In this document: piece after piece, positions 4,815 to 63,338 of the stretch | How positions within the stretch are numbered: position 1 is the stretch's first letter | Layout of the letters: each line of letters begins with the position of its first letter | Assembly (NCBI GenBank): GCA_035710515.1 | Contig: DASTDE010000001.1 | Coordinates: 248,001 to 312,000 of the forward strand | Source: Candidatus Rubrimentiphilum sp. | Lineage (GTDB): Bacteria > Vulcanimicrobiota > Vulcanimicrobiia > Vulcanimicrobiales > Vulcanimicrobiaceae | Direction: 5' to 3' | Length of the DNA: 64,000 nt | Position numbers and translations under genes: made by a program | Notes under the pieces: generated by a model | Seen by the model: only the letters and a program-made list of their open reading frames with translations | Told to the model about the DNA's origin: nothing | Database searches by the model: none

Positions 4815-5539
4815 GCGACGACTCTCGTGGTGGCAATTACATTGTCATCCTGAGCCTGTCGAAGGACGACCGAGCGAGGCGCCACGGGCGCCGCAGACGA
4901 GGTCACGCACTCCAAGTCAAACTCTCTTGCGAACGCTCCCAACAACGCACTCTTCGCGTCATCCATCGAGATCGCGCGGCCGGTTTCGCGCGACAAGCTC
5001 GTAAGGCCGCGATCCGTCAGCCCGCACGGGTTGATCAGCTGATCGTACGAAAGTTCGTTGGAAACGTTTAGCGCGATGCCATGCATCGATGTCATTTTTC
5101 TTACCGACAGCCCGATCGCGCACAGTTGATTGTTGCCGACCCAGACGCCGGCATGGTCTGCGAAGCGCTCGCCGTGCACGCCGAACCCTGCGCATGCTTC
5201 GATCACGGCGCCTTCGAGCGCGCGCACCAACGGAACTATTTCGCGAAAGCGCTCTAGGCGCCGTATCGTATAGACGACCAGCTGCCCGGGCCCATGATAC
5301 GTGACGTCGCCGCCGCGTTCGGTCTCGACCACGTCCACGCCGCGCTGCGCCAGGACTTCGCGCGAAAGAAGAATGTTGGCGGTCTTCGCATTCCGCCCGA
5401 GGGTAATGACCGGCGGATGTTCGACGAAGATCCAGGTCTCGGGATCTCGGCCCGTGCGGACGCGTTCATGCAGTTCGCGCTGTAGGTCGTAAACCTCACG
5501 GTAGGGCCTTAACCCGAGCTCGAGGACTCTGGCCGTCAT
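4811..5539 (-). CDS. lipB: octanoyl-[ACP]:protein octanoyltransferase with substituted catalytic Lys and repeat-derived tail
   Basis: A 242-residue LipB that moves octanoate from acyl carrier protein to lipoyl domains. The RGGDVTYHGPGQLVVY block and the catalytic Cys172 in INPCGLTDRGLTS are present. In M. tuberculosis LipB the catalytic Lys142 lies 34 residues before Cys176. Here the residue 34 before Cys172 is Gln138 (codon CAA, in NNQLCAIGLSV), so the Lys is missing; Lys148 lies ten residues on. The last 25-30 codons (about RSVVLRQAQDDNVIA) are the translation of an interspersed repeat at 4841-4892, so the tail is longer than usual. The stop overlaps the lipA start. The gene lies 45 bp downstream of lpd. 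Confidence 0.95.
   Translation of the reverse strand: MTARVLELGLRPYREVYDLQRELHERVRTGRDPETWIFVEHPPVITLGRNAKTANILLSREVLAQRGVDVVETERGGDVTYHGPGQLVVYTIRRLERFREIVPLVRALEGAVIEACAGFGVHGERFADHAGVWVGNNQLCAIGLSVRKMTSMHGIALNVSNELSYDQLINPCGLTDRGLTSLSRETGRAISMDDAKSALLGAFAREFDLECVTSSAAPVAPRSVVLRQAQDDNVIATTRVVA
4841..4892 (+). repeat. interspersed repeat, copy A (short form), inside lipB 3' end
   Basis: It begins ATTGTCATCCTGAGC and continues with GTCGAAGGACGACCGAGC. Both blocks match copies B and C at 12 kb, but the inner hairpin insert seen there is absent. It lies wholly inside lipB and is translated in frame as the protein tail. Confidence 0.85.
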
Positions 5540-10006: not shown

Positions 10007-12012
10007 TGAAATTTTTAACGCTCGTTCTTGCGCTCGCGATCGCGGCCGGCGCCACCGCCTCGGCGCGGACGATGGTGCTGGACGACATGAAATTGCTGTC
10101 CGGGATTTCGGATCCGGCTATTTCTCCCGACGGCAGCGTCATCGCGTTTACACTTTCCAAACCGGACTACAAGGCGGACCGCAGCGTCCGCACGCTGATG
10201 CTCTACGACTTGCGCGACGGAAGTACGCGCCCGCTCACGGCCGCGCGCCGCGGCGTGGCTTCGGCGGCGTGGTCGCCCGACGGACGGCGCTTGGCATTTC
10301 TAGCGATAACGGGCGAAGGGGACAAAGCTGCCGAGCAGATCTTCGTTTTGGATATGCGCGGCGGGGACGCGATGCAGCTCACGCACGCCGACAACGGCGT
10401 GGAGCAATTCACCTGGCGGCCGGATGGCGGAGCGATCGCTTACGTTACGCCGGACGATCCGGTGAACAAGAAAGACATCGAGCATCACCTGGATGCATTT
10501 GTCGTCGGCGATCAGGCCTATCAAGAAAAAGCGGCGCCGGCGCCAAACCACATCTGGCTGATCAACGCCGACGGCAGCGGCGACAAACGTTTAACGCAGG
10601 GCACGTGGAGTTTGCCGACGGCCACGCCGCCGGGTCCGCCCGCATCTCCGCTTTCGTGGTCGCCCGATGGGAGATCGCTGCTCTTCACACGCATGCCGAA
10701 CGCGTATGACACCGACGGTTATCTGGCGGCGGTCAACGTACTTGACGTGCAGACGGGCGCAATTCACGCGCTTACGTCACATGGCAAATACGAAGGCTAT
10801 GGGTATTTCTCGCCCGATGGAACCAAGATCGCGTACTTTTATCCGTTCCAAGGGGATCCGTCGGCGCAAAATGACGTTCTCGTAACTTCGGCAAGCGGCG
10901 GTAACGGCGACGACGTTACAGCCAGCGATATCGACACGAACGTCGCGCGTGCGATCTGGATGCCGGATTCGAAGTCTTTGCTGATCGCCGGCCATAAAGG
11001 TACCGACGCCGCGCTTTGGATCAAACCGCTCGGCGGCGCGCCGCAGCGCTTGCAACTCGGTGCGGTTCAGCCGGTGCAGCCGTTCTGGCTCGACGCGAGC
11101 GTGAGCAACACGGGCGCGATCGCCTTTACGGGCAGCGAAGCGAACCACCCGACCGAGCTGTATTACATGAGCTCCGCCAACACAGCGCCGAAGCGGCTCA
11201 CGTCATACAACGACGCGGTTGCGAAGTTGGACCTGGGTAAAGTGCAGCCGCTTTCATGGACGTTCGAGGGTTTTTCCGAGAACGGCACCCTGACGTATCC
11301 GCCCGGCTACGACGCGAGCAAAGCGTATCCGCTGGTCCTGGTCGTTCACGGCGGACCGAACTCGGCATCCATCTTATCGTTCAGTACCCTGAATCAATTG
11401 TTAGCTGCGCGCGGCTTTCTGGTCTTCAATCCAAATTATCGCGGCAGCGACAACATGGGCGAAGCGTACTGGCATGCGATCTTCAACGACGCCGGCGCGG
11501 GACCGGGTCGCGATGTGATAGCCGGAATTGCGGCCGTTAAACAAGCTGCGAACGTAGATGCATCGCGCATCGGTGTCTCAGGCTGGTCGTACGGCGGCTT
11601 CATGACGTCGTGGCTCGAGGGACATTACAACATTTGGAAGGCGGCCGTCGCAGGCGCTGCCGTCAACAATTGGGTCGACGAGTACACGCTTTCGGACAAC
11701 AATATTACCGTCGGCATCGCACAGCTGGCCGGCTCGCCGTACGTCGGGAACAACATGGAGGCCTACCGCGCGCAATCGCCGATCACGTACGCGTGGAACA
11801 TCACGGCGCCGACGCTCATTCTCAGCGACACGGGCGATATGCGCGTCCCGATTACGCAGTCATACGAGATGTTCCGTGCGCTAAAAGATCACGGCGTAAC
11901 CGTTCGTTTCTTTGCGTATCCCGTGTCCGGGCACTCGCCCGGCGATCCCGTCCGCGCAATGGACGTAAACCGCCGCTGGGTTGACTGGCTAGTTCAGTAC
12001 CTCAAGCCCTAG
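10003..12012 (+). CDS. secreted S9-family serine peptidase, tandem paralogue
   Basis: A 669-residue paralogue of the preceding gene with the same plan: signal peptide (MMKFLTLVLALAIAAGATASA), propeller blades with SPDG motifs, and a hydrolase domain with Ser529 in GWSYGGFMTSW, Asp612 in DTGDMRVP and His644 in SGHSPGD. The frame is open eight codons further upstream, but ATG at 10003 overlaps the previous stop (ATGA) and places the signal peptide correctly. The final codons TAC CTC AAG CCC TAG form the left copy of a 15-bp direct repeat flanking the GIY-YIG element. The two genes look like a local duplication with later divergence. Confidence 0.95.
   Translation: MMKFLTLVLALAIAAGATASARTMVLDDMKLLSGISDPAISPDGSVIAFTLSKPDYKADRSVRTLMLYDLRDGSTRPLTAARRGVASAAWSPDGRRLAFLAITGEGDKAAEQIFVLDMRGGDAMQLTHADNGVEQFTWRPDGGAIAYVTPDDPVNKKDIEHHLDAFVVGDQAYQEKAAPAPNHIWLINADGSGDKRLTQGTWSLPTATPPGPPASPLSWSPDGRSLLFTRMPNAYDTDGYLAAVNVLDVQTGAIHALTSHGKYEGYGYFSPDGTKIAYFYPFQGDPSAQNDVLVTSASGGNGDDVTASDIDTNVARAIWMPDSKSLLIAGHKGTDAALWIKPLGGAPQRLQLGAVQPVQPFWLDASVSNTGAIAFTGSEANHPTELYYMSSANTAPKRLTSYNDAVAKLDLGKVQPLSWTFEGFSENGTLTYPPGYDASKAYPLVLVVHGGPNSASILSFSTLNQLLAARGFLVFNPNYRGSDNMGEAYWHAIFNDAGAGPGRDVIAGIAAVKQAANVDASRIGVSGWSYGGFMTSWLEGHYNIWKAAVAGAAVNNWVDEYTLSDNNITVGIAQLAGSPYVGNNMEAYRAQSPITYAWNITAPTLILSDTGDMRVPITQSYEMFRALKDHGVTVRFFAYPVSGHSPGDPVRAMDVNRRWVDWLVQYLKP
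11998..12012. repeat. 15-bp direct repeat, left copy (possible target-site duplication)
   Basis: TACCTCAAGCCCTAG is the end of the upstream peptidase gene including its stop. It is repeated exactly at 12557-12571 on the far side of the GIY-YIG element. Confidence 0.85.
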
Positions 12013-12045
12013 ATCGCGGCGCTCACGGAGTGCAGTGGGTTTAGC

Positions 12046-12123
12046 ATTGTCATCCTGAGCGGCGCGCGGGAGCGCGCCCGGTCGAAGGGCGACCGAGCGT
12101 AGTCGAGGGCCGCGGGAGGCGTC
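12046..12123 (+). repeat. interspersed structured repeat, copy B
   Basis: Order: ATTGTCATCCTGAGC, then an inner hairpin (GGCGCGC...GCGCGCC, 7-bp stem), then GTCGAAGGGCGACCGAGC and a GAGGGCCGCGGGAG block. It shares the outer blocks with copies A and C; the inner stem differs in sequence but pairs. Confidence 0.85.
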
Positions 12124-12168
12124 GCCATAGCGCGAGGGGTTGCTAGTCGTGAGGCTCGTCGCAGATGA

Positions 12169-12465
12169 TTGGCGATGAGATCCTACTGGGTGTACATGGT
12201 CCTTTGCGACGATGGAAGTTATTACATTGGCATCACGCACGACGTCGAACATCGTGTGTGGCAGCACAACGAAGGTACCGACCCGCGGTCGTACACCTTT
12301 ACGCGGCGCCCCGTCACGCTCGTTCATGCGATGGAGTTTTCGGAAGTCGATCGCGCCATCAGTTGGGAAAAACAGCTTAAAGGATGGTCGCGAAAGAAAA
12401 AAGCCGCGCTAGTGCGCGGCGATTTCGCTGAATTGAAGAGGTTAGCTCGCTCCCACTCCGCGTAG
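12169..12465 (+). CDS. GIY-YIG single-domain endonuclease
   Basis: A 98-residue protein consisting of one GIY-YIG nuclease domain of the UvrC-N/YhbQ type. The two-strand motif appears as WVYMVLCDDGSYYIGIT (VYM for GIY, then Tyr19-Ile20-Gly21). The conserved Arg29 lies in VEHRVWQHN, and the metal-binding Glu67 in SWEKQLKGWSR. The tail is basic (KKKAALVRGDF). A second ATG at 12175 is equally possible. The gene is alone between two inverted copies of the interspersed repeat, which suggests that it acts on, or travels with, that repeat. Standalone proteins of this type have uncertain cellular roles, and the transposition idea here is inference from context. Confidence 0.9.
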   Translation: MAMRSYWVYMVLCDDGSYYIGITHDVEHRVWQHNEGTDPRSYTFTRRPVTLVHAMEFSEVDRAISWEKQLKGWSRKKKAALVRGDFAELKRLARSHSA

Positions 12466-12552
12466 CGCCATCTCCCGCGGTCCTCGCCTGGCTCGGACGC
12501 CCTTCGACTTCGCATTTCGCTGAAGGCGAAACGCTACGCTCAGGATGACAAT
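12466..12552 (-). repeat. interspersed structured repeat, copy C (inverted)
   Basis: Read on the minus strand it gives ATTGTCATCCTGAGC, then an inner hairpin GCGTTTCGC/GCGAAATGC (9 pairs, one G-T), then GTCGAAGGGCGTCCGAGC and a GGACCGCGGGAG block. The inner stem differs from copy B but keeps its pairing. Confidence 0.85.
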
Positions 12553-12556
12553 ACGT

Positions 12557-12571
12557 TACCTCAAGCCCTAG
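12557..12571. repeat. 15-bp direct repeat, right copy
   Basis: An exact second copy of TACCTCAAGCCCTAG (first at 11998-12012). It ends one base before the stop codon (TGA, 12572-12574) of the minus-strand multicopper oxidase gene. Confidence 0.85.
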
Positions 12572-18435: not shown

Positions 18436-18702
18436 TTAGGGTTTCTTTGTAGGCTTCGGTGACGGTTTACCGGGTTTCATGCCGTTGCGGCGCCACGGTT
18501 TCTTCGTGGATTTCGGTGAGGGTTTCGGAGTGGGTTTACCGGGCTTGATGCCTTTACGGCGCCACGGTTTCTTCGTGGGTTTGGGCGAGGGTTTCGCCAT
18601 ATGCGCCGCCGGGCTGACCTTCGCCATCGGGGCGTTTGCGGCCATGGCCGTGCCCGTCATGAGGAAAGCCGCCGCGGTTAATGACGCGAGTAGCTGTTTC
18701 AA
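18436..18702 (-). CDS. small exported Lys/Pro/Trp repeat protein
   Basis: An 88-residue exported protein. The start is TTG at 18702, supported by a strong Shine-Dalgarno (AAGGAGG, 8 bp upstream). A signal peptide (KQLLASLTAAAFLMTG...AMAA) is followed by a mature part of about 65 residues made of a 23-residue repeat: KKPWRR[KN]G[IM]KPGKP followed by PKPSPK-type spacers. The mature part is highly basic, Pro-rich and lacks Cys. This suggests a cell-surface or DNA/polyanion-binding role, but no family is recognised. It is flanked by a good terminator and transcribed alone. Confidence 0.8.
   Translation of the reverse strand: MKQLLASLTAAAFLMTGTAMAANAPMAKVSPAAHMAKPSPKPTKKPWRRKGIKPGKPTPKPSPKSTKKPWRRNGMKPGKPSPKPTKKP
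18439..18600 (-). repeat. tandem 69-bp coding repeat
   Basis: The block starting CGGCGCCACGGTTTCTTCG recurs at 18488 and 18557, exactly 69 bp (23 codons) apart, with partial units on both sides. It keeps the reading frame of the 18436 gene. Confidence 0.8.
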
Positions 18703-63226: not shown

Positions 63227-63338
63227 TTAGGATTCGCTTGCTCATCGATGATTGCTTCGGCAGCGAGCCGCAGAAGCACGAAGACCACCGCGTCAAGGCT
63301 CACCATGTCATACTGAGCGAGGGCCAGCTGCCCACCGA

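Follow-up and report, generated by a model that had tools for sequence, protein, structure and literature searches.

The window, the whole 64-kb stretch of Candidatus Rubrimentiphilum DNA analysed here, carries a small nuclease gene enclosed by inverted repeats between a peptidase gene and an oxidase gene. The features are summarized in Table 1. The gene encodes a GIY-YIG protein (PF01541, E=1.4e-15), as a first-pass annotation of the sequence had proposed, and the inverted repeats described there do have ATTGTCATCCTGAGC at their outer ends, facing inward; the arms run on for about 85 bp with interruptions. The perfect 15-bp direct repeat around the block, TACCTCAAGCCCTAG, is also real and occurs nowhere else in the window. 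Exact 15-mer direct repeats at most 1 kb apart are found at only one other place in the 64 kb, position 18488; the perfect direct repeat there (18488-18578, about 22 bp, 69-bp spacing) is unrelated to the nuclease element. Compared by eye, the short block 5' of the gene has counterparts in copies at other sites (L034, L035, L038 and L040; weaker in L002) and may be either shared internal element sequence or a leader. No known RNA family matched within the block.

Table 1. Features of the nuclease block and related repeats, in window coordinates
Feature	Position	Strand	Description
Gene-less REP, same family	4841..4878	+	ATTGTCATCCTGAGCCTGTCGAAGGACGACCGAGCG
Direct repeat, copy 1	11998..12012	+	Last codons of the peptidase gene, stop included
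Spacer, 33 bp	12013..12045	+	Peptidase stop to left REP; G001 and G003 share this left junction and have a partly similar spacer
Left REP unit	12046..12135	+	Head ATTGTCATCCTGAGC (12046-12060), variable hairpin GGCGCGCGGGAGCGCGCC, CGGTCGAAGGGCG, then second palindrome CCGAGCGTAGTCGAGG and arm
Block GCTCGTCGCAGATGA	12154..12168	+	Short, 5' of the nuclease gene; comparison by eye
GIY-YIG nuclease gene	12169..12465	+	98 aa from TTG; 96 aa from ATG at 12175
Right REP unit, inverted	12466..12552	-	Head ATTGTCATCCTGAGC at 12552-12538
Direct repeat, copy 2	12557..12571	+	In this genome (G000) only
Gene-less REP head variant	63307..63318	+	GTCATACTGAGC

The window protein has the Y, Y-x-G, R and E of the GIY-YIG superfamily, with Y7, Y17, G19, R27 and E65 invariant and H31 also conserved. 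Its AlphaFold model (pLDDT 93.9) predicts an intact GIY-YIG fold, and the best PDB matches of the model are UPF0213 structures (1zg2, 1ywl), followed more weakly by the structure-specific nuclease Slx1. NCBIfam has no name for the protein, and neither the phage families of PHROGs nor the defence families of PADLOC match the element. Between the same-site copies of G000 and G003, dN is 0.048 and dS is 1.23. With dN/dS at about 0.04, the protein is maintained under strong purifying selection. The copy in G001 has a stop near its end.

In unrooted trees one branch sets apart the housekeeping, UPF0213-like relatives and another the Neisseria-type proteins, with the window clade between them. The Neisseria-type sample forms one side of a branch (support 100/99) with the window clade outside, and in a larger tree the window clade groups with the housekeeping clade (SH-aLRT 98). 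A single origin of the association with REP elements would be compatible with this topology provided that the tree is rooted on the housekeeping side. The class of flanking REP is clustered along the nuclease tree (3 changes against a shuffled mean of 5.7, with 1 of 500 shuffles as low), a pattern that host phylogeny could also account for. The gene appears to be maintained in one or two copies, with mainly vertical inheritance. In L059 (946-1767, minus strand), and in frames of about 270-490 aa from other family members, a housekeeping GIY-YIG domain seems, by eye, to be fused to an apparent cyclophilin-type peptidyl-prolyl isomerase domain.

The repeats at the ends of the block belong to a family dispersed through the genome. 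The head sequence GTCATCCTGAGC occurs exactly 52 times in the 2.54-Mb genome and never in the reversed control, so the repeat is beyond chance; allowing two free bases, the head pattern is found 114 times, against 2 in the reversed control. Gene-less REPs thus outnumber the nuclease gene many-fold. GCGNAGC, an unusually stable DNA mini-hairpin, is present within the imperfect palindrome of many copies.

CGTC-tagged REPs were defined by Di Nocera et al. (2013; PMC3733652), who reported that they lack a dedicated transposase, described no associated gene and found that they gather between genes and at gene ends. The REPs in the window resemble them in head sequence ((C/T)GTC followed by AT), in being palindromic, in their intergenic dispersal and in forming pairs of opposite orientation. 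Their TGTCAT head, shared by the REPs of most relatives, agrees with the definition of an unpaired CGTC, or TGTC/CCTC, with AT next to it at the base of the stem. They differ in having a GIY-YIG gene associated with them, in often forming tandem arrays and in their stem: where the class has an 8-9 bp stem and a 4-5 nt loop, the window REP has a short, imperfect stem with inserted hairpins. As DNA hairpins, the window REPs are not significant in a shuffle test (z 0.26 and -1.53), against z of -2.8 and -4.8 for classical CGTC REPs. Classical CGTC REPs flank the gene in Neisseria, Sphingobium, Azospirillum, Shinella, Sinorhizobium and Aeromonas (in Sphingobium, for example, CGTCACCCCGGGCTTGACCCGGGGTCC stands on both sides), and those at the alphaproteobacterial and Neisseria homologues do fold with the 8-9 bp stem and 4-5 nt loop.

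The association between gene and REP recurs far beyond the window, as a survey of other members of the nuclease family shows. G000 itself has a second, REP-flanked copy, 59% identical to the window nuclease; its third relative, of the housekeeping UPF0213-like clade found in most relatives, is unflanked. Within the taxonomic family, an inward-facing REP head lies within 300 bp of 17 of the 19 window-clade members, compared with none of the 11 housekeeping members. A scan of genomes, one per species, for which a more distant REP-flanked homologue (L055) headed the alignment, yielded, in its list of matches, 80 of 560 confirmed relatives, from many phyla. Among the matches listed, 86% of 79 relatives have a REP head pointing inward no more than 300 bp away on at least one side (5.3% of 508 control ORFs) and 53% have inward heads on both sides (0/508), while about 14% lack a REP head. 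A motif-free measure agrees: an inverted-repeat score of at least 13 across the gene is reached by 54% of the 79 relatives among the matches listed, compared with 1.4% of 507 control ORFs on the same contigs. Most of the flank repeats detected de novo are variants of TGTCATYCTGARCGNAGYGAAGRATCT. The nuclease gene is thus bracketed by REPs in an oriented, specific and widespread manner. A literature search for GIY-YIG nucleases tied to REP, REPIN or CGTC repeats, or to the repeat sequence itself, found nothing relevant in the collection of papers that was covered.

Individual loci show further arrangements. On the Azospirillum lipoferum plasmid AZO_p3 (L184), a REP-bracketed GIY-YIG gene lies within the suf operon, between sufB and sufC, and on a Planktothrix agardhii plasmid (L185) the gene and REP arrays lie between an MmeI-type restriction gene and the DISARM gene drmA. 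Three replicons listed as plasmids, NZ_CP119140.1, NZ_CP119142.1 and NZ_AP026896.1, are chromosome-sized (2.2 and 4.9 Mb) and are probably mislabelled chromosomes. At L036 (950-2050) the array is expanded: tandem runs of nine and four REP units, each about 59-60 bp, stand on the two sides of the gene in inverted orientation. At L055 longer inverted repeats (GTTGGACAA...TGCTGGACAA, at about 1415-1460 and 1838-1863) lie outside the REPs and are perhaps an older element boundary.

Comparison of the same sites within the genus, with a single genome per species, shows that presence of the gene varies at three sites. At the window site (site A), G000, G001 and G003 have the gene. The block is not common to all relatives at this site, however: G002 and G006 have a gene-less inverted REP pair and G004 a single degenerate REP. 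No site A locus was retrieved from G005. At site B, between a dioxygenase and a cytochrome c gene, the nuclease gene is present in G004 and G005, present in opposite orientation in G006, and missing from G000, G001, G002 and G003. Site C, that of the second copy in G000, has the gene in G000 only, gene-less REPs in G001, G005 and G006, and no REP in G004. None of these genomes has the clean empty site that had been envisaged, in which the peptidase and oxidase genes would abut stop to stop; the relatives without the gene hold gene-less REPs instead. No movement was caught between close strains. With only some 60% identity between the nuclease copies of the three sites, the moves would be old or horizontal. 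The element in G003 has a GG variant on one side and a CC variant on the other. Within the genus, the cytochrome c gene at site B (L089-L095) and purD at site C (L084-L088) point one way in some species and the opposite way in others. The inverted neighbour genes are, where the sequence is readable, bounded by inverted REPs, and the REPs may act as inversion points for single genes.

REP number follows the presence of the gene. Among 60 relatives, the median number of REP heads per genome is 67 with the gene (n=19) and 7 without it (n=41; p=7e-8), and the link holds with one genome per genus (p=1.6e-5) and within the family only (p=4e-4). Because gene-free genomes have few REPs, the REPs seem to depend on the gene. 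Three seeming exceptions, G014, G030 and G031, have another REP variant, identical to that flanking their own nuclease gene. The most abundant REP variant of a genome is the flanking variant in 11 of 11 genera (leaving out G035, a mixture), although this match is partly trivial because the flanking REPs belong to the genome's own REPs. G026 is a true exception: it has about 50 REP heads, and its GIY-YIG genes are UvrC and the housekeeping one only. Here the REPs may have outlived their nuclease, or another enzyme may serve them.

The first-pass annotation had read the 15-bp repeat as a duplication around a candidate mobile element. As an insertion scar the repeat does not stand. In G003 and G001 the element is at the same place with a single copy of the 15-mer, in which two bases (G003) and one base (G001) are changed relative to G000, and the outer flanks of 86 elements have no recurrent direct repeat (mean longest shared word 4.35 vs 4.13 +- 0.10 shuffled; longest 9). 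For G000 against G003, dS comes to 1.23 over the nuclease gene and to 0.81 over the final 60 codons of the peptidase gene (peptidase comparisons of 120 codons or more are spoiled by misalignment at an indel). A neutral second copy that is identical over all 15 bases despite dS of about 0.8-1.2 has to be younger than the split of the two species. The repeat represents a recent local duplication rather than a general target-site duplication. What does stand of the candidate mobile element is a recurring nuclease-REP unit whose presence varies between congeners at three sites.

To call such an element undescribed was too strong, as REP elements have been known for a long time and there are descriptions of GIY-YIG nucleases that act at dispersed repeats. 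Ssn, a GIY-YIG single-strand nuclease of Neisseria, is reportedly specific for a dispersed repeat and affects transformation; we take the N. gonorrhoeae homologue L181 to be Ssn. Ssn and the window protein are both small stand-alone GIY-YIG proteins with dispersed repeat copies, and L181 lies between CGTC REPs. However, the window protein is 36% identical to L181 over 72 residues and falls outside the Neisseria-type clade, on a separate branch; it shares with the Ssn family the association with a dispersed palindromic repeat but not the clade. The UPF0213/YazA-type proteins provide the nearest solved structures and a neighbouring clade in the tree, but lack REP flanks (0/11) and are represented by a housekeeping copy in most relatives. 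The closest parallel in organization is RAYT/REPIN, in which a low-copy enzyme gene is likewise flanked by REPs that are dispersed without the gene in the same genome. The enzyme there is an HUH tyrosine transposase with GTAG REPs, whereas the only gene of our element encodes a GIY-YIG protein and the heads are TGTC or CGTC, which places it outside RAYT/REPIN. On our best reading, by analogy, the window nuclease would be a REP-associated enzyme comparable to that system, with its mode of mobility a matter of inference.

We consider it probable that the block is a REP-bracketed nuclease unit and that the nuclease is the dedicated partner of the genome's TGTC/CGTC REPs, which it would recognise and cut, with spread by REP-to-REP repair or recombination. 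The nuclease would recognise REPs that are probably extruded, as hairpins of single-stranded DNA, when the DNA is replicated or taken up; its predicted Slx1-like fold would fit structured DNA as a target. Through repair or recombination from one REP to another, REPs, and occasionally the whole REP-gene-REP unit, would spread, be replaced or lose the gene, and most REPs would be passive gene-less copies. Cutting followed by repair from another REP could give spread without target-site duplication, tandem arrays, replacement of an arm (as in the GG/CC element of G003) and inversions.

Several other explanations have to be weighed. The inverted ends and direct repeat of G000 would suit a conventional insertion sequence, bounded by terminal inverted repeats and a target-site duplication of 15 bp, but this explanation is hardly credible: the direct repeat is missing in the same-site relatives and does not recur in the 86 elements, on which ground we rejected it, the ends are variable REP arrays, and gene-less REPs far outnumber the gene. 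That gene and REPs meet by chance, or merely tolerate the same intergenic places, might be argued from the tendency of REPs to accumulate between genes and at their ends (PMC3733652). It is very improbable given the lack of REP flanks in the sister GIY-YIG clade and of inward heads on both sides of any control ORF, against about half of the relatives among the matches listed; the excess of inverted repeats and REP heads over control ORFs led us to reject chance co-location.

The nuclease could instead be a selfish free-standing homing endonuclease for which the REP pair is an insertion niche, cut and copied into through the REP arms, while another agent spreads the REPs. GIY-YIG is a classical homing-nuclease fold, target-site duplications are lacking, and site A exists both as a gene-less REP pair and with the gene between the arms. 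Yet genomes without the gene have few REPs, the gene-less versions could equally be deletion derivatives, and long vertical persistence at one site with so low a dN/dS speaks against homing; we think this unlikely. An immobile host function, in which a domesticated nuclease and its REP recognition signals control DNA uptake or recombination, a role of the kind reported for Ssn of Neisseria and its target repeat, draws on the strong purifying selection, the vertical inheritance at site A and the position of the N. gonorrhoeae homologue between CGTC REPs. The patchy distribution across genera and sites, shifting positions, end arrays and inversions would be unusual for a settled role, and we regard this explanation as improbable too. 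A dedicated REP nuclease, spreading through REP-to-REP repair, is the reading we prefer.

The association is real, general and testable, and the window case is on a separate branch from the Neisseria-type proteins. More tentatively, and with the balance slightly against it in our estimate, the Neisseria-type branch and this second branch near UPF0213 might both be general mobilising enzymes of TGTC/CGTC REPs across bacteria. The pairing points to GIY-YIG nucleases as the missing partner of a REP class said to lack one, and so to a candidate enzyme that can be tested; Di Nocera et al. sought transposase genes (PMC3733652), so a small nuclease could, we infer, have been missed. The genus provides natural alleles of these sites both with the gene and without it. 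If the tentative reading for the two branches is true, they would form a second phylum-wide system of REPs and their enzyme, parallel to RAYT/REPIN and based on unrelated chemistry.
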